Origin: a virus
Reading direction: 5' to 3' (one strand)
Length of the DNA: 35,595 nt
IMG/VR virus record: IMGVR_UViG_3300049218_000483
Span: 1 to 35,595 of that record
The translations under genes were made by a program, and so were the position numbers. Position 1 is the stretch's first letter; every line of letters begins with the position of its first letter. This document shows, piece by piece, positions 12,529-35,595 of the stretch. A model generated the notes under the pieces. It did not search any database. It saw only the letters and a program-made list of their open reading frames with translations, and was not told the origin of the DNA.

Positions 12529-13188
12529 CTATTTCCGGATGATTTCCGCCACCTTGCCGTCGAGGAAGGTAATGCGGGCGTTTTCGGGGTAGAACCAGAT
12601 CTGTTCGGTCGTGGTGCATGCACGCCGGTGGCAGGGATCGCGGGTTTCCCGGGACAGAGGCGCGCCCCAGGCGCTGGCCAGAACCTGATCCGGCGTCATC
12701 TCGAACACCACGCCCGGCAGTTTGAGCCGCCACGCGGCCTCCGCCGGCTTCAGATGCGCCAGGAACAGGGCGTAGCTGCCGATGTCGTAGCGCGTGTCAT
12801 GATCGGTGAAATAGGCGCTGAACGGCTTGGCGATGTCGAAGCCCATATAACCGGGGCCGCCGTTTTCGAAGGTGACGTGAACCCGGATTTCCTTGGTATA
12901 GGAATAGGTCGGCTCGACCCCGCTGTAGGAATCGATGGTGAACTTGCCGGATACAAGCGCGCACTGGGGACCGTTCGGACCGGGATCGAGGAAGAAGTAG
13001 TAATCGGGCCGGTCGCAGAGCAGTTTCCGGCTGGCGCCGATCAGGTAATAGGTATGGCCGATATAGGGCGCGATGACGGGCCGCTCGGCCTCCGTGTCGC
13101 GATCATGCTCGAGTTTCGCGCGCTGCGCGGCGGGGTCGCAGGCGGCGAGGAGGAGGGCGATGCCGAGCGTTGTTAGTCTGTGTAGCAG
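12529..13188 (-). CDS. Putative lipoprotein with apparent CTG start, about 219 aa
   Basis: The frame is open from 13264 to 12529 without an ATG, GTG or TTG before residue-level evidence of the mature protein begins. A CTG at 13188 is preceded by GGAG at good spacing. It would begin a normal lipoprotein signal: basic LHR, a hydrophobic stretch (LTTLGIALLLA) and the lipobox LLAAC, giving lipid attachment at Cys17. The mature part has YIGHTYYLIGASRKLLCDRP, QCALVSGKFTIDSYSGVEPT and DPCHRRACTTTEQIWFYP, with four or more cysteines suited to a secreted protein. I do not recognise the family. The nearest internal ATG (12846) would cut away the signal and half the protein. A phage-borne lipoprotein could act in superinfection exclusion, but that is a guess. 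Confidence 0.65.
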   Translation of the reverse strand: MLHRLTTLGIALLLAACDPAAQRAKLEHDRDTEAERPVIAPYIGHTYYLIGASRKLLCDRPDYYFFLDPGPNGPQCALVSGKFTIDSYSGVEPTYSYTKEIRVHVTFENGGPGYMGFDIAKPFSAYFTDHDTRYDIGSYALFLAHLKPAEAAWRLKLPGVVFEMTPDQVLASAWGAPLSRETRDPCHRRACTTTEQIWFYPENARITFLDGKVAEIIRK

Positions 13189-24066: not shown

Positions 24067-24132
24067 TTACGCGGTGCGGCGGCGTATTGTAGCGGCGGTG
24101 GGGCTGTCGAGGGTGATGGGCCAACCGGACAT
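24067..24132 (-). pseudogene. Chimeric mini-ORF: start of one neighbour fused to end of the other (21 aa)
   Basis: The frame begins MSGWPIT, exactly like the 155-residue gene downstream, behind the same AGGAG site. It ends TLDSPTAATIRRRTA, nearly identical to the C-terminus of the 176-residue gene upstream (TLDSPTAPTTRRRTA). It sits between two nested palindromes. It looks like the scar of a duplication followed by an internal deletion that joined the ends of two neighbouring genes. Confidence 0.6.
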
Positions 24133-24160
24133 GGGCTTTCTCCTGCTGGCGGTGAAGAAT

Positions 24161-24398
24161 TTATCCGCGGATTTCGCAGATTTTCGCAGATTTTATGAAT
24201 AAGAGATTCACCACGGAGGCACAGAGGCGCGGAGGAAGAATATAAATTATTCGCTGCGCGGCCATGAATTCATGAAGCGCCCCCCCGCCTTCGCGAGGGC
24301 AGGCTCAAAAGCATAATTCATCGGCTGTTCTTTGTGTCTCCGTGCCTTTGTGGTGAATATTTTCTTAATCTGCGAAAATCTGCGTAATCCGCGGATAA
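24161..24398. repeat. Nested palindrome, copy 8
   Basis: Outer arms (24161-24192 TTATCCGCGGATTTCGCAG type, and 24365-24398) enclose inner arms (24207-24235 CACCACGGAGGCACAGAGG type, and 24330-24357). The loop has TTATTCGCTGCGCGGCCAT. It lies between the 176-residue gene and the chimeric mini-ORF. Confidence 0.92.
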
Positions 24399-24400
24399 CC

Positions 24401-24931
24401 TCACGCGGTGCGGCGGCGGGTTGTGGGGGCGGTGGGGCTGTCCAGGGTGAAGGTCATGGCGGGGGTTTCGCCGTCGAGTTTGGCGGCGGTCAAGGTGGCG
24501 CCGGATTGCGAGACGTTGCCGAGGATCGCCAGGATGCCATAGAGCAGCTGCGCCAGCGTGGCCGGCTGCCCGTTGGCGGCGTAGCTTTCGGCGAGCGCGC
24601 CGGTGAGCACGGCGAGATCGGCCAGGCCCAGCGCGGCGGGATCATAGGGGCTGAACGCGACCACCTGGCATTTGACATCGGCCGGATCGGCCCCCGACGC
24701 GGCGGCGTGGAGGAGCAGGACGCCATCGGTCGTGACGTCCGACCCCGCGGGCGTCAGGCTGTACCAACCGTCGCCGAGCTCGGCCACCGCCCCGGCCGGC
24801 GCGGCGAAGGCGCCGCCGTTGCGGGAGATGAGAACCGAGGGCGCGGCCCCGGTAAGCCCGGTGACGTGATCCGCGGACGCGGCGAGAAAGAACGGCACCG
24901 GCCGCGCATCGCCGTTCAATATCAATTGCAT
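24401..24931 (-). CDS. Unrecognised phage protein, 176 aa, possibly fibre/baseplate associated
   Basis: The N-terminus has the beta-rich course of phage baseplate or fibre accessory proteins (PVPFFLAASADHVTGLTGAA, SVLISRNGGAFAAPAGAVAE, LGDGWYSLTPAGSDVTTDG). A middle VVAFSPYDPAALGLADLAVL resembles the end of such domains, and the tail is Gly/Thr-rich and basic (RRRTA). The GWY-L element is common in proteins placed near tail fibres. It lies between the toxin-antitoxin region and the portal region. A likely AAGGA ribosome-binding site precedes the ATG. Confidence 0.6.
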   Translation of the reverse strand: MQLILNGDARPVPFFLAASADHVTGLTGAAPSVLISRNGGAFAAPAGAVAELGDGWYSLTPAGSDVTTDGVLLLHAAASGADPADVKCQVVAFSPYDPAALGLADLAVLTGALAESYAANGQPATLAQLLYGILAILGNVSQSGATLTAAKLDGETPAMTFTLDSPTAPTTRRRTA

Positions 24932-25348: not shown

Positions 25349-25942
25349 CTACTGGTTGATCACCCCGTCCGTCGGCTTCGCGCTGGTCGGCGGCGGGGGG
25401 CTGTTCCGGAACAGAGGGGCATAGAGTCTGTCGAGATGGGCCGCCCGGATGGTTTCCTGGATCAGGGCGGCGTCGCTGGCGGTCGTCGCGATCTTCGCGC
25501 CAAGCGATGATTTACCGAACAGATCGGGCCGCTCCATCGCCAGTTTCAGCAACCGCTTGGTCGGCTTAGACGGTCGAATCTGGCCAGCCTCGTATTTCTC
25601 GAACGATTTTTCCCCGGTGCCGAAGATTTCGCCGGCATCACGCTGCGTCAAGCCGCAGCGCACCCGAATGGCCCGGATCGCGAGCGGGGTAAAAAGCTCC
25701 CCCTTCACGATCGCCTCGGCTGTCCGCCTGGCCATCTCCGCCACCAGGTTATCGTCATCGACCAGCTGGCCGTCCAAATCCGCCGGATCATCGAGCGAAT
25801 ACCACCAGCCGGGCTGAAGGTATTCGAAGGTCTGGCCTTCGACCGTCAGCGCAACCAGCTTCTCACCTCGGATCATCGGCCGGCCGCTTTCCGGGCTGGG
25901 CATCGCATCCGGGTAATTCCTTGGGTTCTTAGCCATGGTCAT
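25349..25942 (-). CDS. MqsA-family antitoxin without the usual zinc site, 197 aa
   Basis: The C-terminal half has the XRE-type helix-turn-helix of MqsA (AIRAIRVRCGLTQRDAGEIF, then EKSFEKYEAGQIRPSKPTKR). The N-terminal half corresponds to the zinc-binding toxin-neutralising domain. However, the CPxCGxxM knuckle is replaced by SPESGRPM (Ser16, Ser19), and no other cysteine pair exists. The only Cys is in the DNA-binding domain. The start ATG overlaps the toxin stop (ATGA), which fits the toxin-first order of E. coli mqsRA. It would neutralise MqsR and repress its own promoter. It is longer than E. coli MqsA (131 residues) because of a C-terminal extension with GAKIATTASDAALIQETI. Confidence 0.82.
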   Translation of the reverse strand: MTMAKNPRNYPDAMPSPESGRPMIRGEKLVALTVEGQTFEYLQPGWWYSLDDPADLDGQLVDDDNLVAEMARRTAEAIVKGELFTPLAIRAIRVRCGLTQRDAGEIFGTGEKSFEKYEAGQIRPSKPTKRLLKLAMERPDLFGKSSLGAKIATTASDAALIQETIRAAHLDRLYAPLFRNSPPPPTSAKPTDGVINQ

Positions 25943-26244
25943 GCCTCTTTGAAACTGATCAGGTAAAACGCGCCGGCCGCGTCGAGCGTGAATTTCACAT
26001 ACAGTTCCTTTCCGCTCAGCGTGGGCTTGTAGACATCCTGCCAGATTTGATGATTGGCATAGGAGGTCATGGACTTGTCGAAATCGGCCTGGCTCAAAGC
26101 CTGGATCGCGGCGACCACACCCGAATCGTCCAATTTGAGGGCATCGGCCCCTTGCTTGGACGTGAAAGACCGGTTCAGCGTGGTTGGGTCGGCGAACGCC
26201 GCCTTGATGTCTTTCAACCGGAAATGTGGTTTTCGCTTCTCCAT
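25939..26244 (-). CDS. mqsR: MqsR-type mRNA interferase toxin, 101 aa
   Basis: The start MEKRKPHFRLKDIKAAF and the core QADFDKSMTSYANHQIWQDV and KELYVKFTLDAAGAFYLISF match E. coli MqsR (98 residues) closely in order and spacing, including the catalytic region around KSMT-Y and IWQDVY. MqsR cleaves mRNA in a RelE-like fold. The start chosen matches the E. coli N-terminus; an upstream MMDFS start is possible. The antitoxin gene follows with a four-base overlap. The pair is a type II toxin-antitoxin module that may stabilise the prophage. Confidence 0.9.
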   Translation of the reverse strand: MEKRKPHFRLKDIKAAFADPTTLNRSFTSKQGADALKLDDSGVVAAIQALSQADFDKSMTSYANHQIWQDVYKPTLSGKELYVKFTLDAAGAFYLISFKEA

Positions 26245-26286
26245 TGAAAAGTCCATCATAGGGCATAACACACATAGACTCAACGA

Positions 26287-26301
26287 CCCCCATAATGGGG
26301 G
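26287..26301. promoter_or_regulatory. Palindrome upstream of mqsR, candidate operator
   Basis: CCCCCATAATGGGGG is a perfect inverted repeat with a five-base centre, 42 bases before the toxin start. MqsA-type antitoxins bind palindromes in their own promoter, so this is a reasonable operator candidate. The sequence differs from the E. coli AACCT-AGGTT operator. Confidence 0.45.
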
Positions 26302-26369
26302 CATACCCATGATCGTCGCGCAGCGCCCCGCGCCGGGATGGCGCCCTCGCCCGAAACGATGAACGCGCG

Positions 26370-27299
26370 TTAACCGTTGACCACGCGGGCGCGGCTGTAG
26401 CCGGCGAGGGTCGTTCCGCCGCCCATCGCGGCGCCGATCTGCTTCGCATAGGCCGCGCCGATGCGGGCATGGCCGAAGGCGAGCGGGTGGACGCCGTCAT
26501 AGGTCCATTGGAACGGGTTGCCGCTGTAATTGAAAGCGATCGAGAACACGCCGGCGGGGAACAGGGATGTGGCGTCAATGAAACAGACATTGGCGTCGCC
26601 GGAGGACGCCTTATAGGCCGCCACCGCCGCGGACAGGTTGCCCTCATACGCGCCCATGCACTCGACGATCACGAAGAGAATGGTGGACGGCCCGGCGGCG
26701 GCGCGCATGGCGGTGAGCCACGCCCCGCACGCCGATTGGATGGCGGAGCCGGCGACGCCGCCGCGCAGATCGTTGCCGCCATGGATGACCGCGATGTAAT
26801 CGAGCCCCGCGAAGCTCCGGCTCCGGCCGATGCTGTGGGTTGCATAGAACGTGTCGAACGCCGGCGCGTTGCTTCCGCCGGACACCGTCCACCCTGAGCC
26901 GCCATAGCCGAGCTGCCCGTATTCCGCGCCGAGCGCCAGGGCGATGTCGCAGGCGAAGCTGACCGTTGCGTCATCCGAGCCGTCCGTGTTGGCGTGGCAG
27001 CCCTGGGTGATGCTGTCCCCATAGATCAGCATGCGTTTGGAGCGCAGCGCCGCCGGGGAGACCGAGGCCGAGCCGTCGATCGTGACGCCGTTGATCCGCA
27101 CGACATTGGTCGGCGACACGCCGCTCGACCCCGCCACGTCGCCATAGCTGTTGGTTTGCGACGATTGCCGGAAATACAGCTCAACGGAATAGGTTGTGGT
27201 GGGGGTGAGGGATGCGGACAGGACGAGCGAGGTCTGAGACGGCGCAAGCTGAACATCGGTGAACGCGCCGCCGTTGAGCGAATACCGCAAAACCGGCAT
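26370..27299 (-). CDS. SGNH-hydrolase fibre tip, second module without own N-terminal fibre, 309 aa
   Basis: The catalytic elements are GDSITQG (Ser96), HGGNDLR (Asn176) and DGVHP (Asp268, His271), which are blocks I, III and V of SGNH/GDSL esterases. The last residues (TLAGYSRARVVNG) repeat the end of the preceding fibre. The frame is open upstream through ALSLSLDNATTSGFPSGD to the TAG of the fibre gene with no start codon other than the ATG at 27299, and that ATG has a poor ribosome-binding site. The missing start suggests that it is the C-terminal part of a longer fibre, now a spare tip or made by readthrough. As a tip enzyme it would deacetylate a host surface sugar. Confidence 0.75.
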   Translation of the reverse strand: MPVLRYSLNGGAFTDVQLAPSQTSLVLSASLTPTTTYSVELYFRQSSQTNSYGDVAGSSGVSPTNVVRINGVTIDGSASVSPAALRSKRMLIYGDSITQGCHANTDGSDDATVSFACDIALALGAEYGQLGYGGSGWTVSGGSNAPAFDTFYATHSIGRSRSFAGLDYIAVIHGGNDLRGGVAGSAIQSACGAWLTAMRAAAGPSTILFVIVECMGAYEGNLSAAVAAYKASSGDANVCFIDATSLFPAGVFSIAFNYSGNPFQWTYDGVHPLAFGHARIGAAYAKQIGAAMGGGTTLAGYSRARVVNG

Positions 27300-27353
27300 G
27301 TCACCGGACGGGAAGCCGGAAGTGGTGGCGTTGTCGAGGGAGAGGGAGAGGGC

Positions 27354-29864
27354 CTAACCATTGACGACGCGCGACCGCGAGTAGCCGGCGAGGGTTGCGG
27401 GGCCGCCGCTGGGCGTAAGGGCAACGATCACTTCAGTCGCCCACATCGCGCCCGCCGCCTGGTCACCGTAGTCGTTTGGATGCACGAGATCGGCGCTGCG
27501 CTGTAGACTATTTGCGCGCCGCTGGAAATAATTAAACGGCCCGAGCGGATTGACATGAAAAACCGTGCTTCCATTTGAAAGCGCGGTCATCTCGGCATCG
27601 TACTGGATCAGTAATGCTGAGTTTATCACACTTTCGTCGCCCGACGCTTCGTTTTGAGACATCACTCCGAACAGATGGATTGACTTCAGCGTGGGCACAT
27701 TCGCCTGGATATAGGCGATGATCGCCGCCATGTTCGATCGATAGGTCGATGCCGAGTTGGCGACGCTTTCCTGTGCGTCCGCGCCGCCAAGTTCGGTTAC
27801 CACGCGCGTCACGCCGGCAGCGGCCCAGGCAGTACAAGCCGCAGGAAGATACGATCCCCCAGGTAACCAATTGTTCGAATATGATCCTGATACCGAGTAG
27901 TTCAGCGACAGGTTAGTGTTTGTCCCGTTCGGGCCGTTGGTCGGTGCGCCACCATACCATTCCTTCGACGGCATGCCGAAATTCAACTGGTCGATCATTG
28001 CTGAGAAAGGCGACTGAACCGTCGAATAGGCACCCTCTTCGATGCTGTCCCCGAAGCCGCCGACGATTTCCAGCGCGCTTGACGCCTTGGTTGTGACGTG
28101 GACTTGCGCCGTGAGCACCTGCGCGCCGCCGGTCGTATCCGTGTATTGCAGGGCGTAATAATAAGTCGTTGCCGCCGCGATGCTCGTATCGATGTAGGCT
28201 TCTGTCGTCGCGCCGCTGATCGCCGTTCCATTCGATCCTGCCGTCGTCGACCTGTACCATTGATAGGTATAAGTTCCACTGCCGCCGATGGCGTTGCTGG
28301 CCGAAAGCTGTACGGTCTTGACGCCAACATAGGTAGCATAGGCGGTGCCGGCGGAGAATGTCGCGCTGGTGGTGAGCGAGGCCTGCGAGGAAAACGCCGT
28401 GCTCGAATGCGAATCGGTGACTTCAATGACGTAGTAATAGGCCGTTGACGGCGAGAGGCTGGTGTCGTTCAGAGTTAGCGACGTTCCGCCGGAAATCAGA
28501 TAGCCGGACCCGGGCGTGAACCCTGGCGTCGTGGACCGATACCACTGGTACGAATAGGCAGGATAGCCGCCGCTAGCCGATGTAGACGTTAGGGTCGCCG
28601 TCGTTGAGCCGATATTCGACGGCGTGACGCTGCCGGCCGTCAGCGAGGCAGGGGCGGATGTTGTGACGCTAATCTGCGCGGCGGTTACCGTCGCGCTTGC
28701 CGAATCGGTACTAACCAACTTGTAATAATAGGTGGTCGACGGCGACAGGCCGCTGTCCATGTAGATCAAAGTAGAGGCGCCGGAAATGATGTTGCCGGAG
28801 CCCGGCGTGAACCCGGATGTGATGGACCGATACCATTGATATAAATAGGGCGACGTGCCGCCCGATGCGCCGGTGTTCGTGACGCTGCAGCCGGTGCTAG
28901 TGATCGAGGACGCGCTCGAGGTGCCGGAGGTCAGGGCACCGACCGATGTGGTGATCGAGGCTTGGCTCGACCATGCGATTGCGCCGGTGGAATCCGTGAC
29001 GACCTGAAGATAGTAATAGGTCGTACTTGAGTTGAGCCCACTGTCGTTTAGGACAAGCGAGGTTGGGCCGGAAACCATATTTGATGATTGTGGGACGAAG
29101 CCCGCGCTGGTCGAGCGATACCACTGATAGGTGTATGGGCTGGAGCCGCCGGTCGGCGCGACGGCGCTGAGCGTCGCGGTCGAACCGGTAATGCCAGAAG
29201 AAGTTATCGCTCCGGCGGCCAGCGACGAGTTGCCGAATGCCTCCAGATTGTCGATGCCGTTCCCGCCGCTGCCTCCGCTGTTCGCAAATCTGAAAGCTGC
29301 GTAGCCGGGCGTGTCCAGCGACAAATCGGTGATGTTGACTTGGTACCCACCCGGCTCGCTTGATCCGGTCAGCCAGACCTTTGCGCTGATTGTGGACCCG
29401 ATGGCGGCGACGCGGAACGCAAGCGATGTCCCGGTGCTCCAGGCGATTCCGCTGACAGTCTGCGAACCGCCAACCGCGCCTGCCGACCCGCCTACTGATT
29501 TGTAAAGCTGGAACGTGATCGCGCTTCCGCCACTGCTCCCTGTGATCAAGAAGCCGTACCAGTTTTGGGCGCTGCTGGACCCGCTATATCGGACGAGCGG
29601 CGTGAACCCGTTTCCCGTTCCGTCGAACGATTTGCTGACGAAATACAGCCCCATATCGGCGGTGGCCGGGATCGACACGCCGCCACCCCCCGCCAGAACG
29701 ACAACATCGCCGTCGGCACGGGATACGCCAGATAGGATGTTCGGCGACGAATAGGCCAGCGACCCGCCGGCCGTGACCTGCCATGTACCGACGACGGATG
29801 TAAACCATACCGGCAGCGCGCCGGCTATATCCGTGTCGAAATTGTCGAGGAAATACAGGTTCAC
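27354..29864 (-). CDS. Tail fibre with Ig-like repeats and SGNH-hydrolase tip, 836 aa
   Basis: The start is GTG, behind GAGGGG. The N-terminal 210 residues resemble a concanavalin/LamG-like lectin domain (FLDNFDTDIAGALPVWFTSV, GNGIDNLEAFGNS). Four Ig/FN3-like repeats of about 90 residues follow, each with YxYQWYRS and TTYYY. The C-terminal 230 residues are an SGNH-hydrolase domain with GDSIEEG (Ser607) and DLVHP (Asp792, His795). The usual GxND block is GGAD (position 695 Ala, not Asn), so activity may be altered. The end TLAGYSRSRVVNG matches that of the next module. The protein probably binds and cuts a polysaccharide receptor. It is placed upstream of the portal rather than after the hub gene. 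Confidence 0.85.
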   Translation of the reverse strand: MNLYFLDNFDTDIAGALPVWFTSVVGTWQVTAGGSLAYSSPNILSGVSRADGDVVVLAGGGGVSIPATADMGLYFVSKSFDGTGNGFTPLVRYSGSSSAQNWYGFLITGSSGGSAITFQLYKSVGGSAGAVGGSQTVSGIAWSTGTSLAFRVAAIGSTISAKVWLTGSSEPGGYQVNITDLSLDTPGYAAFRFANSGGSGGNGIDNLEAFGNSSLAAGAITSSGITGSTATLSAVAPTGGSSPYTYQWYRSTSAGFVPQSSNMVSGPTSLVLNDSGLNSSTTYYYLQVVTDSTGAIAWSSQASITTSVGALTSGTSSASSITSTGCSVTNTGASGGTSPYLYQWYRSITSGFTPGSGNIISGASTLIYMDSGLSPSTTYYYKLVSTDSASATVTAAQISVTTSAPASLTAGSVTPSNIGSTTATLTSTSASGGYPAYSYQWYRSTTPGFTPGSGYLISGGTSLTLNDTSLSPSTAYYYVIEVTDSHSSTAFSSQASLTTSATFSAGTAYATYVGVKTVQLSASNAIGGSGTYTYQWYRSTTAGSNGTAISGATTEAYIDTSIAAATTYYYALQYTDTTGGAQVLTAQVHVTTKASSALEIVGGFGDSIEEGAYSTVQSPFSAMIDQLNFGMPSKEWYGGAPTNGPNGTNTNLSLNYSVSGSYSNNWLPGGSYLPAACTAWAAAGVTRVVTELGGADAQESVANSASTYRSNMAAIIAYIQANVPTLKSIHLFGVMSQNEASGDESVINSALLIQYDAEMTALSNGSTVFHVNPLGPFNYFQRRANSLQRSADLVHPNDYGDQAAGAMWATEVIVALTPSGGPATLAGYSRSRVVNG

Positions 29865-30086: not shown

Positions 30087-31352
30087 ATGAAAAGCGTAGT
30101 GGGATTTACCAAAGTGCATATTAGCCGCCGACCCGCTCCTAAAAGCATCGGTGAAATCAGTAAAGAAAATAAAGGGCTCGGACCCGGTTTCGATTTTCTC
30201 CGTGTTGCACTCGCCTTTGGCGTCGTGTTCATTCACGCGGAAACGGTAGCAACCGGACAGAACTATGAATCCTCACGTGTCATATGGCTACCTACTTATG
30301 CAATCCTGATCATGTTCTTTGGGCTGAGTGGTTTTCTGATCACCGGTAGCGCCCAGCGTTTAAGCCTAAAGAACTTTATGATCAATCGGGGCATGAGAAT
30401 ATTTCCAGCTCTTTTTATCGAAATCACTATGTCGGCACTTATTCTTGGTGCCATATTTACTAATATTCCCGTTCTAGAATATTACCTGCAAGGCGGGACA
30501 TGGCGTTATTTTACGAATGTATTTGGTTTGATTAATTATCATCTGCCAGGAGTCTTCACCCATAACCCAAAAAACACTGTCAATTGGTCCCTCTGGACCG
30601 TTCCGTATGAACTTGGTTGCTATGTCATCATGGCCGGATTAATGATCTTTAAGCTGGTGCACCGTCGCAGGGCTATCCTAGTTATCGTCGCGATCTTTCT
30701 TGCACTTGGCTTTATCGTTCCAATGTTCATCACCGATCTGCAATCGCAAGATATATTAACGCAGACTTTGGGGCCGATCTTTGTAGACCGGGGCTCCAAG
30801 CTCTACGTCTCGTTCCTGCTCGGCATCGCGGCCTATCTTTATCGGGATCGCATTCCCTATAGCCCAAGGCTGTTCGCCGGGTGCGTGGCGTTCTGCGCAG
30901 CTTTGTCGCTGCTGCGGCCGGCGCCGTGGATGACGATTCCGCTGCTGAACCTGATCGTCGGGCCGATGGCGGTGTATATCACGATCTTCATCGGCCATAC
31001 CCGGATCCCCAGGCTGCCGATCTATGGGCGCGGGGATTACTCCTATGGCGTCTATCTGTATGGCAACCCGATTCAGCAATCGGTGCGGGCGGCGCTGCCG
31101 TGGACGAATAACGCGTGGCTCAACCTGCTGTTTTCGGTGCCCCTGATCACGCTGTTCGCCATGTTCTCGTGGCACTGCCTTGAAAAGCAGGCCCTGAAGC
31201 TGCGCAAGCGGTTTTCCTTCGTGGCCCGCGTGCGCGGCGTGGAGGGGCCGGGGGAAAGCAAGGTCGGGGCGCCGCCGCCGGTGGAGGAACAGGCGATGGC
31301 GCATGCTTCGCCGGAGACGGGAGACGCGGCCAGGGTTTCACCCTCGGCGTAA
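30087..31352 (+). CDS. Acyltransferase-3 family membrane protein (OafA-like), 421 aa
   Basis: About ten membrane helices are visible. Arg39 and His50 lie in FDFLRVALAFGVVFIH, the hallmark of the family, and INRGMRIFPALFIEITMSAL and LGRGDYSYG-like motifs later (IYGRGDYSYGVYLYGNP) fit too. Such enzymes O-acetylate surface sugars, so phage copies often change the host receptor to block reinfection. The first 700 bases are AT-richer than the last 560, as if two sources were joined near 30790. The end is 4 bases from the convergent acyltransferase. The cytoplasmic tail after residue 380 is disordered and Pro/Glu-rich. Confidence 0.87.
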   Translation: MKSVVGFTKVHISRRPAPKSIGEISKENKGLGPGFDFLRVALAFGVVFIHAETVATGQNYESSRVIWLPTYAILIMFFGLSGFLITGSAQRLSLKNFMINRGMRIFPALFIEITMSALILGAIFTNIPVLEYYLQGGTWRYFTNVFGLINYHLPGVFTHNPKNTVNWSLWTVPYELGCYVIMAGLMIFKLVHRRRAILVIVAIFLALGFIVPMFITDLQSQDILTQTLGPIFVDRGSKLYVSFLLGIAAYLYRDRIPYSPRLFAGCVAFCAALSLLRPAPWMTIPLLNLIVGPMAVYITIFIGHTRIPRLPIYGRGDYSYGVYLYGNPIQQSVRAALPWTNNAWLNLLFSVPLITLFAMFSWHCLEKQALKLRKRFSFVARVRGVEGPGESKVGAPPPVEEQAMAHASPETGDAARVSPSA

Positions 31353-31356
31353 AAGG

Positions 31357-32373
31357 CTAAGCGGTGCGCAGGACGTATCGAACGGAACGTCCGCCATATT
31401 TCTCAACAAACGCGTTGGATAGCGCCGCGACGCCGAGAACCGCCGCGATCGATCCGACGAAAAAGACCAGCAATTCATCATGCCCGACCGCGCGGGCGGC
31501 CATCCGGACCGTGAGCAAAGTCGGCACCTGAACCAGATAGATCGAGTAGGACACCCGGCCAAGCCAATGCAGCGGCCCCCAGGACAGCGCACCGGCCACG
31601 GCGCCCCTGTCCCACGCCAAAGCGCCGACCATCGGCACAAGCATCGCGACGGCCAGAACGTCCACCCCCAGAATCGCGGCGGCGACCAGGCCGATCAGCG
31701 GAATGAGGAAATATCGCACCCGCGCCAGCCACGCCGGAAACACACCCCGCGCCACGATGACCCCGATCGCAAATTCCGACAGGCACCGCGATAACGGCAG
31801 CCAGCCGCGGGAGCTGGAGGCGTCCATGCGCCATCCGCTGTCACCGGCCACGATCAGGACGCCGGCGACGCCCAAGGCGCCCAGACACGCGGCCGCCCCG
31901 GCCCGTCTCAAGCCCAGGAGCGCGAAGGCGGGAAACAACAGGCTCGCCGCCCATTCCGTCGAAATCGACCAGTCCGGCGGATTGATGGATGTGCCGGAGG
32001 CGGGGAATATCTTCCACATATGAACGAGCAGCGCCTCATCGACCGCGTAGCGCCAATAGGGCAGATCGTGGTTCACGGCCAACGCCGCCGTCGCGCAGGC
32101 GAGAACCAGAAGATGCAGCGGAAACAACCGCGCGATCCGTTTCACGAGGAACGGCCAGTACGATCCGAGCGGGTCGGCCGTGAACTCGGCGCCGTGCCGC
32201 CGCGCCAGGATGAAACCGCTGAGAACGAAGAAGAAATCGACCGCCAGATAGCCCCGGCTGATGAACGGAATATCATCCCAACCCGGCGTCGGCGACCACC
32301 GGCCGAGATGGAACAGCAGCACCCACATGGCGAAGACGCCGCGCAGCGATGTCAGTGATTTGATTTCCCTCAT
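31357..32373 (-). CDS. Acyltransferase-3 family membrane protein, 338 aa
   Basis: The family signature is LRGVFAMWVLLFHLG with Arg11 and His22. Further conserved elements are AVDFFFVLSGFILARR, WPFLVKRIARLFPLHLLVLA and DWSISTEWAASLLFPAFALL. About ten membrane helices are predicted by eye. The start MREIKSLTSL is the usual one for the family; twelve more codons upstream are open but not needed. It is convergent with the first acyltransferase. The two are only distantly alike, so they are not recent duplicates. Confidence 0.88.
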   Translation of the reverse strand: MREIKSLTSLRGVFAMWVLLFHLGRWSPTPGWDDIPFISRGYLAVDFFFVLSGFILARRHGAEFTADPLGSYWPFLVKRIARLFPLHLLVLACATAALAVNHDLPYWRYAVDEALLVHMWKIFPASGTSINPPDWSISTEWAASLLFPAFALLGLRRAGAAACLGALGVAGVLIVAGDSGWRMDASSSRGWLPLSRCLSEFAIGVIVARGVFPAWLARVRYFLIPLIGLVAAAILGVDVLAVAMLVPMVGALAWDRGAVAGALSWGPLHWLGRVSYSIYLVQVPTLLTVRMAARAVGHDELLVFFVGSIAAVLGVAALSNAFVEKYGGRSVRYVLRTA

Positions 32374-32482
32374 GGGGTTGGAATAGCACCGGATTTCCGG
32401 GTTTTCCATCGTTTGATGGGCGTCGACGTGACGGCGGGCCGTCCGCCGTCAGCGTAAAGGCATCCGCGCCGGAGCGTGGGGC

Positions 32483-33597: not shown

Positions 33598-33927
33598 TTA
33601 AGGGCGAAGCAGCCGAAAGAGGCCGAGCGTGCCGCCCATCACGGTGAACACGACGCTGAGGACGATGATGACAAGGTTCCATGTCGTCGGCATCTGGCTG
33701 ATCCTGCCCTCGATCCCGGCGACGCGCTCGGCAAGGGCGGACAGGTCAGCCTTCGTCGCCATGCGCTCTTCGATCCGCACAAGCGTCAGGTCGATCCGCG
33801 CCAGCGTGGCGCGAGTGTCCCGCGATTCCGATTCCAGCGCGTCGATCCGTGCGTCCATGTCCGGATTATGGGGACCGCCGCCGCCTGGCGCGAGCGGTTG
33901 GGGCGGACGGGGCTCGGCTGGACTCAC
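33598..33927 (-). CDS. Coiled-coil/one-helix membrane protein, paralog 5 of the array, 109 aa
   Basis: The shared plan is a Pro-rich head (MSPAEPRPPQPLAPGGGGPH), then NPDMDARIDALESESRDTRA, a coiled coil (LVRIEERMATKADLSALAER), and a C-terminal membrane helix (NLVIIVLSVVFTVMGGTLGL) ending FRLLRP. A C-tail-anchored coiled-coil protein is the likely form. It resembles small phage proteins of the XhlA or DUF1640 kind. Shortest paralog. Confidence 0.75.
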   Translation of the reverse strand: MSPAEPRPPQPLAPGGGGPHNPDMDARIDALESESRDTRATLARIDLTLVRIEERMATKADLSALAERVAGIEGRISQMPTTWNLVIIVLSVVFTVMGGTLGLFRLLRP

Positions 33928-33942
33928 GCCACGCGGCCGAGA

Positions 33943-34290
33943 TCAGGGATGGAGCAGCCGGACGATCCCGAACGCGCCGCCCATGACAGTGAAGACCAAG
34001 GCGATGACGAACCCGAGAAGCTGAAGCGTGGTCGGCAGCTTTTCCACCATGCCTTCGACCTTGGCGACGCGCTCGGCCACCGCCGATATGTCGGTTTTTG
34101 TCGAGAGGGCGAGCGCGGCCAAATCAGCCTTCGTCGCCATGCGCTCTTCGATCCGCATAAGCGTCAGGTCGATCCGCGCCATCGCGGCGCGGGTCTCCCG
34201 CGTTTCCAATTCCAGCGCGTCTATGCGTGCGTCCATGCGCGGATTATGGGGACCGCCGCCGCCTGGGGCAAGCGGTTCGGCCGAACTCAC
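33943..34290 (-). CDS. Coiled-coil/one-helix membrane protein, paralog 4 of the array, 115 aa
   Basis: Same plan as its neighbours: MSSAEPLAPGGGGPHNPRMD head, DALELETRETRAAMARIDLT, coiled coil with MATKADLAALALSTKTDISA and VAERVAKVEGMVEKLPTTLQ, membrane helix (LLGFVIALVFTVMGGAFGIV), and RLLHP end. Compared with the 109-residue paralog it has a two-heptad insertion (ALALSTKTDIS). Confidence 0.78.
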   Translation of the reverse strand: MSSAEPLAPGGGGPHNPRMDARIDALELETRETRAAMARIDLTLMRIEERMATKADLAALALSTKTDISAVAERVAKVEGMVEKLPTTLQLLGFVIALVFTVMGGAFGIVRLLHP

Positions 34291-34305
34291 GCCAGGTCGC
34301 CGAGA

Positions 34306-34674
34306 TCAGGCACGGAGCAGCCGGACGATCCCGAACGCGCCGCCCATCACTGTGAAGACCAAGGCGACGATGAACCCGAGAAGCTGAAGCGTGGTCGGCA
34401 GCTTTTCCACCATCCCTTCGACCTTGGCGACGCGCTCGGCCACCGCCGATATGTCGGTTTTCGTTGCGAGGGCGAGCTCGGAAATTCTGGCGTTCACGGC
34501 TGCGATATCGTCCTTCGTCGCCATGCGCTCTTCGATCCGCACAAGCGCCAGGTCGATCCGCGCCATCGCGGCCCGAGTCTCCCGCGGTTCCAGTTCCAGC
34601 GCGTCGATGCGTGCGTCCATGTCCGGATTATGGGGATCGCCGCCGCCTGGGGCAAGCGGATCGGCCGAACTCAC
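34306..34674 (-). CDS. Coiled-coil/one-helix membrane protein, paralog 3 of the array, 122 aa
   Basis: Head MSSADPLAPGGGDPHNPDMD, coiled coil with MATKDDIAAVNARISELALA and the shared ISAVAERVAKVEGMVEKLPT, membrane helix LLGFIVALVFTVMGGAFGIV, and RLLRA end. The 15-base spacing to both neighbours is the same across the array, as expected of tandem duplication. The last 60 residues are nearly identical to paralogs 2 and 4. Confidence 0.78.
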   Translation of the reverse strand: MSSADPLAPGGGDPHNPDMDARIDALELEPRETRAAMARIDLALVRIEERMATKDDIAAVNARISELALATKTDISAVAERVAKVEGMVEKLPTTLQLLGFIVALVFTVMGGAFGIVRLLRA

Positions 34675-34689
34675 GCCAGGCCGCCGAGA

Positions 34690-35130
34690 TCAGGGACGGA
34701 GCAGCCGGACGATCCCGAACGCGCCGCCCATCACTGTGAAGACCAAGGCGACGACGAACCCGAGAAGCTGGAGCGTGGTCGGCAGCTTTTCCACCATGCC
34801 TTCGACCTTGGCGACGCGCTCGGCCACCGCCGATATGTCGGTTTTCGTTGCGAGGGCGAGCGCGGCCAAGTCATCCTTCGTCGCGAGCGTGTTCAGCCGC
34901 TCTTCGATCCTGGAGACCCGCTCCGAAACGCCGGCAATGTCACCCTTCGTCGCAAGCACGCTCATGCGCTCGTCGATCCGCGCCAGCGTCACGTCGATCC
35001 GCGCCATCACGGCCCGAGTCTCCCGCGTTTCCGATTCCAGCGCGTCGATGCGTGCGTCCATGTCGGGATTATGGGGACCGGCGCCGCCCGGGGCAAGCGG
35101 ATGGGCCGGACGGGGTTCGGCTGGACTCAT
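34690..35130 (-). CDS. Coiled-coil/one-helix membrane protein, paralog 2 of the array, 146 aa
   Basis: Head MSPAEPRPAHPLAPGGAGPH, then LARIDERMSVLATKGDIAGV and SERVSRIEERLNTLATKDDL, two extra coiled-coil segments relative to paralog 3, before the shared ISAVAERVAKVEGMVEKLPT and membrane helix. The extra segments appear to be duplications of the SERVxxIEERxxxLATKxDL unit. Confidence 0.78.
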   Translation of the reverse strand: MSPAEPRPAHPLAPGGAGPHNPDMDARIDALESETRETRAVMARIDVTLARIDERMSVLATKGDIAGVSERVSRIEERLNTLATKDDLAALALATKTDISAVAERVAKVEGMVEKLPTTLQLLGFVVALVFTVMGGAFGIVRLLRP

Positions 35131-35145
35131 GCCGGGCGGCCGAGA

Positions 35146-35595
35146 TCAGGGATGGAACAGACGAAAGAGGCCGAGCGTGCCGCCCATAACGGCGAATACC
35201 AGGGTGACGATGATCGTGATCAAGGTCCAGGTGGTCGGCAGATTGCTGATCTTGCCGTCCATCCTGGCGAGATCGACCTTGGTCGACAGGGTGAGCGCCG
35301 CGATGCTTTCCCTGGTTTCGCCGCGTAGCGCGCCGATCCCCTCCCTGGTTTCGTTGCGCAGCGCGCCGATCCCTTCCCTGGTTTCGTTGCGCAGCGCGTC
35401 AATCGCTTCCCTGGTTTCGCTGCGTAGCGCGCCAATCGCTTCCCTGGTTTCGCTGCGTAGCGCGGCCAAATCCTCCTTCGTCGCCATGCGCTCTTCGATC
35501 CGCATAAGCGTCAGGTCGATCCGCGCCATCGCGGCGCGGGTCTCCCGCGTTTCCAATTCCAGCGCGTCTATGCGTGCGTCCATGCGCGGATTATG
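35146..35595 (-). CDS. Coiled-coil/one-helix membrane protein, paralog 1 of the array, 5'-partial
   Basis: The gene runs past the right edge of the window, where the HNPRMDARID context shows that the usual head lies beyond. The coiled coil is expanded by five 11-residue repeats (RSETREAIGAL, RNETREGIGAL and variants), encoded by 33-base tandem units at about 35305-35465. Eleven-residue repeats form long right-handed coiled coils. The C-terminal membrane helix (TLITIIVTLVFAVMGGTLGL) and FRLFHP end are like paralog 5. Confidence 0.78.
   Translation of the reverse strand, partial: HNPRMDARIDALELETRETRAAMARIDLTLMRIEERMATKEDLAALRSETREAIGALRSETREAIDALRNETREGIGALRNETREGIGALRGETRESIAALTLSTKVDLARMDGKISNLPTTWTLITIIVTLVFAVMGGTLGLFRLFHP

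Follow-up and report, generated by a model that had tools for sequence, protein, structure and literature searches.

A second SGNH module lies in frame directly behind the stop codon of the tail-fiber gene in the viral DNA described here, and it is probably a displaced ("orphan") fiber tip left behind by an exchange of tips. The window, meaning the whole stretch that we analyzed, is a complete IMG/VR virus record of 35,595 bases, taken without a host genome. Fiber tips contribute to the host range of a phage, and evidence that they have been exchanged generally comes from mosaic alignments; the phage group examined here displays one clean swap, between two near-identical phages, together with an apparently failed or partial one in the window, and this pair of cases provides a testable picture of tip exchange. 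It also illustrates that an in-frame second tip behind a stop codon need not mean readthrough.

Two tips behind one another in one reading frame

The locus, all of it on the minus strand, comprises the following features.

27354..29864 (-): tail-fiber gene, consisting of an N-terminal domain, Ig-like repeats and tip A; 836 aa, GTG start, TAG stop, syntenic homologues in L003, L004 and L005
27357..28085 (-): tip A, the SGNH-fold tip of the expressed fiber (GDSI...GGAD...DLVHP; block-III Asn absent), assigned by alignment and by an AF2 model with Foldseek
27357..27395 (-): C-terminal motif of tip A, TLAGYSRSRVVNG, assigned by repeat and alignment
27354..27356 (-): TAG stop, the junction between the tip-A fiber and the probably displaced tip B; the GTCAAT shortly before the stop is similar to GTCAAC at the equivalent place in several intact tip-B genes
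26370..27353 (-): putative orphan, decapitated tip B, with a CE2-like jelly-roll remainder and an intact SGNH domain; 327 codons in frame with the fiber, ending in TAA at 26370
27030..27353 (-): remainder of the tip-B jelly roll, including an ATG at 27299 devoid of a Shine-Dalgarno sequence, assigned by alignment, start of the HMM match, model strands and Shine-Dalgarno energy
26463..27023 (-): SGNH/GDSL catalytic domain of tip B (Pfam PF13472, Lipase_GDSL_2, E 6.5e-12; alignment)
26373..26411 (-): C-terminal motif of tip B, TLAGYSRARVVNG, assigned by repeat and alignment

This layout agrees with an earlier note on the same DNA, which had described the 836-residue fiber ending at the TAG, a second SGNH module open in the same frame from that TAG, 18 codons with no start followed by a poor one at 27299, and a common TLAGYSR-RVVNG ending with similar DNA ends. 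Each of these descriptions held, whereas the proposed consequences fared differently, as set out below.

The fiber starts at its GTG behind a good Shine-Dalgarno sequence (dG -7.0). Its tip A matched Pfam Lipase_GDSL weakly (E 0.0027, under the curated cut-off), and its AF2 model, of low confidence (pLDDT 53), was matched by Foldseek to SGNH esterases (1yzf, E 2e-5). Alignment of the SGNH blocks revealed that GDS and DxxHP are kept in tip A and that GGAD replaces GxND, leaving the Ser/Gly/Asn/His series of blocks incomplete. The same GGAD occurs at block III in L034 (263-946), while the other tip A sequences of relatives have GxND, which suggests a non-catalytic or altered tip-A lineage comprising the window and L034. 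Given GGAD in place of GxND, the window tip A may bind its target instead of cleaving it. The two esterase tips named in the earlier note are therefore uncertain: module 2 is a GDSL/SGNH domain, but tip A lacks the block-III Asn.

In tip B, by contrast with tip A, the aligned catalytic motifs are all kept (GDSITQG, GGND, YDGVHP), and what is missing is the beginning of the module. Intact tip B in relatives consists of a CE2-like jelly roll followed by the SGNH domain, fused to the fiber stem. The intact tip of L112 was modeled with a mean pLDDT of 84 and a pTM of 0.85, and its best structural match in Foldseek was CE2 (2waa, E 5e-19, TM 0.67-0.75); the order of jelly roll and SGNH domain that characterizes CE2 is therefore present in the intact tip, and a CE2_N match under the cut-off was obtained in L029. 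The L112 model strands at residues 2-4, 17-20, 31-34 and 40-46 all precede residue ~51, which corresponds to the start of the window module. Tip B of the window begins one codon past the TAG, in the middle of a domain, and its jelly roll is incomplete, lacking about 50 residues that form four beta strands in intact homologues; the shortened domain would be expected to misfold. Its HMM match runs from ORF residue 2 at model position 48, and against 61 other loci with matches to the tip HMM it is the sole tip B starting at that point and the sole tip not fused to a fiber stem, with L034 and L035 starting at a contig end within the gene. Module 2 shares no more than about 54% identity with its nearest homologue; searching PDB sequences with it found no match, and neither did single-sequence scans of viral contigs, genome contigs and phage collections.

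Relatives carry one tip per fiber

Searching with the fiber yielded three syntenic relatives (L003, L004, L005), each with a single tip A, fibers ending in ...SHQLKRARS and the next tail gene directly behind. The tip-B relatives were reached solely through the portal gene, which finds many more relatives than the fiber does. The survey for single-tip alleles that the earlier note had proposed gave a uniform picture: each of the 13 distinct relatives has tip A (L003, L004, L005, L028/L108, L034/L109) or tip B (L026, L027, L029, L031/L114, L035, L110, L111, L115) in the same slot, never both, and our HMM survey of the collected loci found no relative with tips in series within one fiber.

Two other unusual fiber loci were encountered. 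L118 (5203-9972) and L146 (1515-7974), from more distant phages, each carry two complete tip-B fiber genes in tandem on one contig, an arrangement distinct from that of the window. L029 (4187-8008) has one frame of 1274 codons with two different fiber N-terminal domains in series and then tip B, which is devoid of the C-terminal motif and fused to the 154-aa protein ordinarily encoded ahead of the portal; this frame is another unusual product of fiber recombination.

A natural exchange of tips is visible in L034 (tip A) and L035 (tip B), which are 99.9% identical across 3,648 nt. Their identity begins exactly at the start of the motif, CCAACCCTTCCGGCTAC, in the DNA CC AAC CCT TCC GGC TAC, and upstream of it the two contigs encode unrelated tips. 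The tip-A version recurs in a third sample, L109, in which the stem is visible. Because the two sequences are nearly identical from the motif onward and unlike in the tips upstream, tips have been exchanged between otherwise near-identical phages, with the motif as the 3' boundary.

The shared C-terminal motif

The 3' ends of tip A and tip B in the window form a 53-nt direct repeat of 75% identity, within which 39 coding nt give TLAGYSR[S/A]RVVNG in both tips, with 5 of the 13 codons differing and one difference being non-silent; just outside the motif, identity between the tips drops to 30-40%. A GYSR-like motif ends the fibers of all 13 relatives except L003-L005 and L029, in modified form in L031 and L115. 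Scanning the viral collection with the DNA pattern of the motif returned nine contigs only, all nine of them at fiber ends of this phage group, and a pattern requiring ...VNG plus a stop returned no match. Outside the L034/L035/L109 and L028/L108 groups, the motif DNA of different fibers is 47-89% identical; with such DNA divergence and conservation as protein, the idea of a general DNA recombination site was rejected. As judged from these alignments, it is a protein motif, usable as a crossover where donor and recipient are close enough, and not a dedicated recombination site.

These findings bear on the proposal that module 2 is a silent archive from which tips are switched by recombination at the shared ends. 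The part of this proposal that stood is the motif itself, which is common to both 3' ends in the window and is the observed boundary of exchange in L034/L035. The spare-tip role did not stand, since the shared ends are direct repeats located before and at the end of module 2, and recombination between them would merely delete the module. Moreover, the 5' part required for rebuilding a tip-B fiber is lost, making the module unusable by itself, and the Pfam-scanned ORFs of the window gave no match to a recombinase, invertase or reverse transcriptase. We therefore consider an archive of this kind highly improbable. The orphan could act as a donor in trans, solely to a phage already having tip-B sequence. 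An invertible cassette was likewise rejected, the shared ends being direct repeats only and the scanned ORFs having no recombinase match.

Start signals and the stop codon

Independent expression of module 2, as a free or co-assembled esterase made from the ATG at 27299 or by reinitiation, is unlikely. This ATG, the first in frame behind the TAG (codon 19, about 50 nt past the fiber stop), would still leave a full SGNH domain, and the codons of the module are native-like; the signals expected of a gene are, however, lacking. Its Shine-Dalgarno energy of -2.3 kcal/mol is at the level of the random median (-2.1), compared with -4 to -12 for most structural genes, and promoter matches for module 2 were at chance level, so that neither the independent promoter nor the start that the earlier note had regarded as decisive against a joined protein was found. 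The ATG also sits within the jelly roll, at a position occupied by Phe in L035 and L112, and no standalone homologue exists among the 61 loci.

The earlier note had favored readthrough of the TAG into a protein of about 1160 aa, and programmed or suppressor-dependent readthrough producing a minority of fibers with two tips in series would be of some consequence: were the TAG read through occasionally, one gene would give one virion two polysaccharide specificities. The common frame, the 327 open codons, the intact catalytic residues and the common end motif are all in keeping with this idea, and yet readthrough would append a module that begins in mid-jelly-roll, four strands short, and the extension is conserved in no relative. 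The RNA behind the TAG folds like its shuffles (z = 0.01), and no tRNA, suppressor or other, is encoded in the window; a suppressor supplied by the host is possible. Recoding of TAG was rejected, several other genes of the window stopping at TAG, as was a programmed frameshift, both modules being in the same frame. In-register open frames also follow the stops at 12529 (TAG, 393 codons) and 17378 (TGA, 252 codons), in-frame continuations without meaning. Coding sequence behind a stop has a one-third chance of sharing its frame. Given this chance and the two other same-frame continuations, the shared frame is not remarkable, and it is the presence of the second tip, not its frame, that calls for explanation. 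Taken together, readthrough appears very unlikely. Nothing in the window indicates either readthrough or separate initiation of tip B, while low-level expression would be possible.

Codon composition and the proposed displacement

Codon composition breaks at the TAG. GC3 was 0.714 for the fiber and 0.667 for tip A, whereas tip B, at 0.859, came close to the portal (0.885); the two tips differed significantly (p = 8e-8) and portal and tip B did not (p = 0.33). Module 2 thus has the composition of the phage's own genes and the tip-A fiber looks foreign, a pattern suggestive of an incoming tip-A fiber laid over a resident tip B. Across the relatives, tip A is low in GC3 throughout and tip B ranges from about 0.65 to 0.95 by segment, so composition is no proof of which tip came first.

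We propose displacement by tip exchange as follows. The resident fiber would have carried the CE2-like esterase tip B, and an incoming fiber, bringing SGNH tip A together with a stop codon of its own, would have overwritten it. In contrast to the L034/L035 exchange, the 3' crossover would have missed the shared motif and fallen within tip B, perhaps at a short GTCAA similarity, leaving the last 327 tip-B codons behind the new stop, deprived of a start signal and of the first four strands of the jelly roll. The junction reads GTC GTC AAT GGT TAG GCC CTC in the window and ACC GTC AAC CTG GCG or similar in several intact tips, and an illegitimate crossover at this short similarity is possible. 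The order of events is the one that we infer from these patterns, and the orphan would then be absent from the virion protein. Two observations weigh on the other side: the frame is intact over 327 codons with the catalytic motifs kept, as would also be expected under selection for expression, and the microhomology spans few bases, with an inexact breakpoint. An intact frame with intact motifs (GDSIT, GGND, DGVHP) means either that the event was recent or that the module is maintained, and under displacement a recent event would account for it.

The junction was found in no independent contig, and the arrangement is known from one contig alone, which raises the question whether assembly joined two tip alleles from one sample into a chimera. 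The window is indeed a single metagenomic contig, its junction pattern recurs in no other, and tip-A and tip-B alleles coexist in the phage group. Nevertheless, the few bases common to both sides at the junction are far below the usual assembler overlap, and the contig is coherent on either side, making a chimera extremely unlikely.

Neighboring genes

Behind the putative orphan tip lie two further features.

25349..26310 (-): toxin-antitoxin pair, MqsR (25939-26310) and MqsA (25349-25936), separating the putative orphan tip from the following tail gene
24401..24931 (-): 176-aa tail protein, directly behind the fiber in most relatives

In the slot behind the fiber, L027 (5441-6199) and L031 (5336-6184) carry a small protein and a GNAT acetyltransferase, and L110 (5876-6655) carries DUF4258 and HTH proteins; with its varied toxin-antitoxin-like pairs, this slot may be a cargo hotspot beside a host-range gene. 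At 24069-24453, part of the 176-aa tail gene is repeated: a 51-nt copy (88%) of its 3' end is found 334 nt beyond it, nested inverted repeats (32 nt at 97% and 32 nt at 78%) lie between the copies, and the segment resembles a small mobile or REP-like element inserted at the end of that gene. Just upstream of the fiber (30087-32409) is a pair of oppositely oriented Acyl_transf_3 (O-acetyltransferase-like) genes, whose homologues adjoin the fiber in most relatives. Their position makes acetylated surface sugars a plausible target of the tips, and lysogenic conversion by these genes, acting on the very sugars targeted by the tips, is possible. Toward the end of the record (33598-35583, minus strand), five tandem paralogous genes of 109-146 aa, about 16 nt apart, encode coiled-coil-like proteins with a C-terminal hydrophobic segment that are up to 84% mutually identical, the fifth lying near the record end; such a tandem is unusual for a phage.

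Comparison with known systems

Modular receptor-binding tips and mosaic fiber C-termini are well known in tailed phages. The phages examined here conform to this pattern, one family of stems carrying alternative distal domains that are delimited by a short conserved sequence (L034/L035), and the window departs from it in that the old tip, usually lost, is kept behind a stop. In the invertible fiber cassettes of the Mu/P1 type, alternative fiber ends are flanked by inverted repeats and switched by a DNA invertase. The window likewise has two alternative fiber ends at one locus; unlike those cassettes, its second copy is in direct orientation with direct repeats, and an invertase was not found.

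Tip B resembles the CE2 enzymes 2waa, 2wao and 3u37 in its architecture of jelly roll plus SGNH domain, and differs from them in sharing 16-18% identity and, in the window, in its incomplete jelly roll. SGNH fibers are active esterases in other phages and are represented in Klebsiella prophages (PMC13123978); the same paper refers to phage G7C and its LPS deacetylase as a further case. The tips of the window share with these an SGNH domain at the fiber and Ser/Asp/His motifs; they differ in that tip B is CE2-like and tip A is devoid of the block-III Asn, for want of which its putative activity would be expected to be weak or absent. From their fold, and by analogy with the characterized SGNH fibers, the tips presumably bind or deacetylate surface polysaccharide.

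The closest parallel to the proposed displacement is the C-terminal displacement of Rhs proteins, in which dissociated tips lie downstream of rhs genes, as also described for mafB (PMC2935791). As in Rhs, alternative tips occur on the same stem and are exchangeable between strains, an old C-terminal tip probably lies without a start signal behind an intact gene that has received a new one, and composition breaks between the parts. In contrast to Rhs, the gene encodes a phage tail fiber and not a toxin, there is one orphan and no array, the orphan lacks the 5' part of its tip, no copy of a conserved core precedes it, and it is the 3' end that is shared. Among the titles and abstracts covered by a limited literature search, we found no described case of tip exchange or an orphan module of this kind for a phage fiber. 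A retained, in-frame, decapitated tip behind a new stop codon is an uncommon trace of tip mosaicism.
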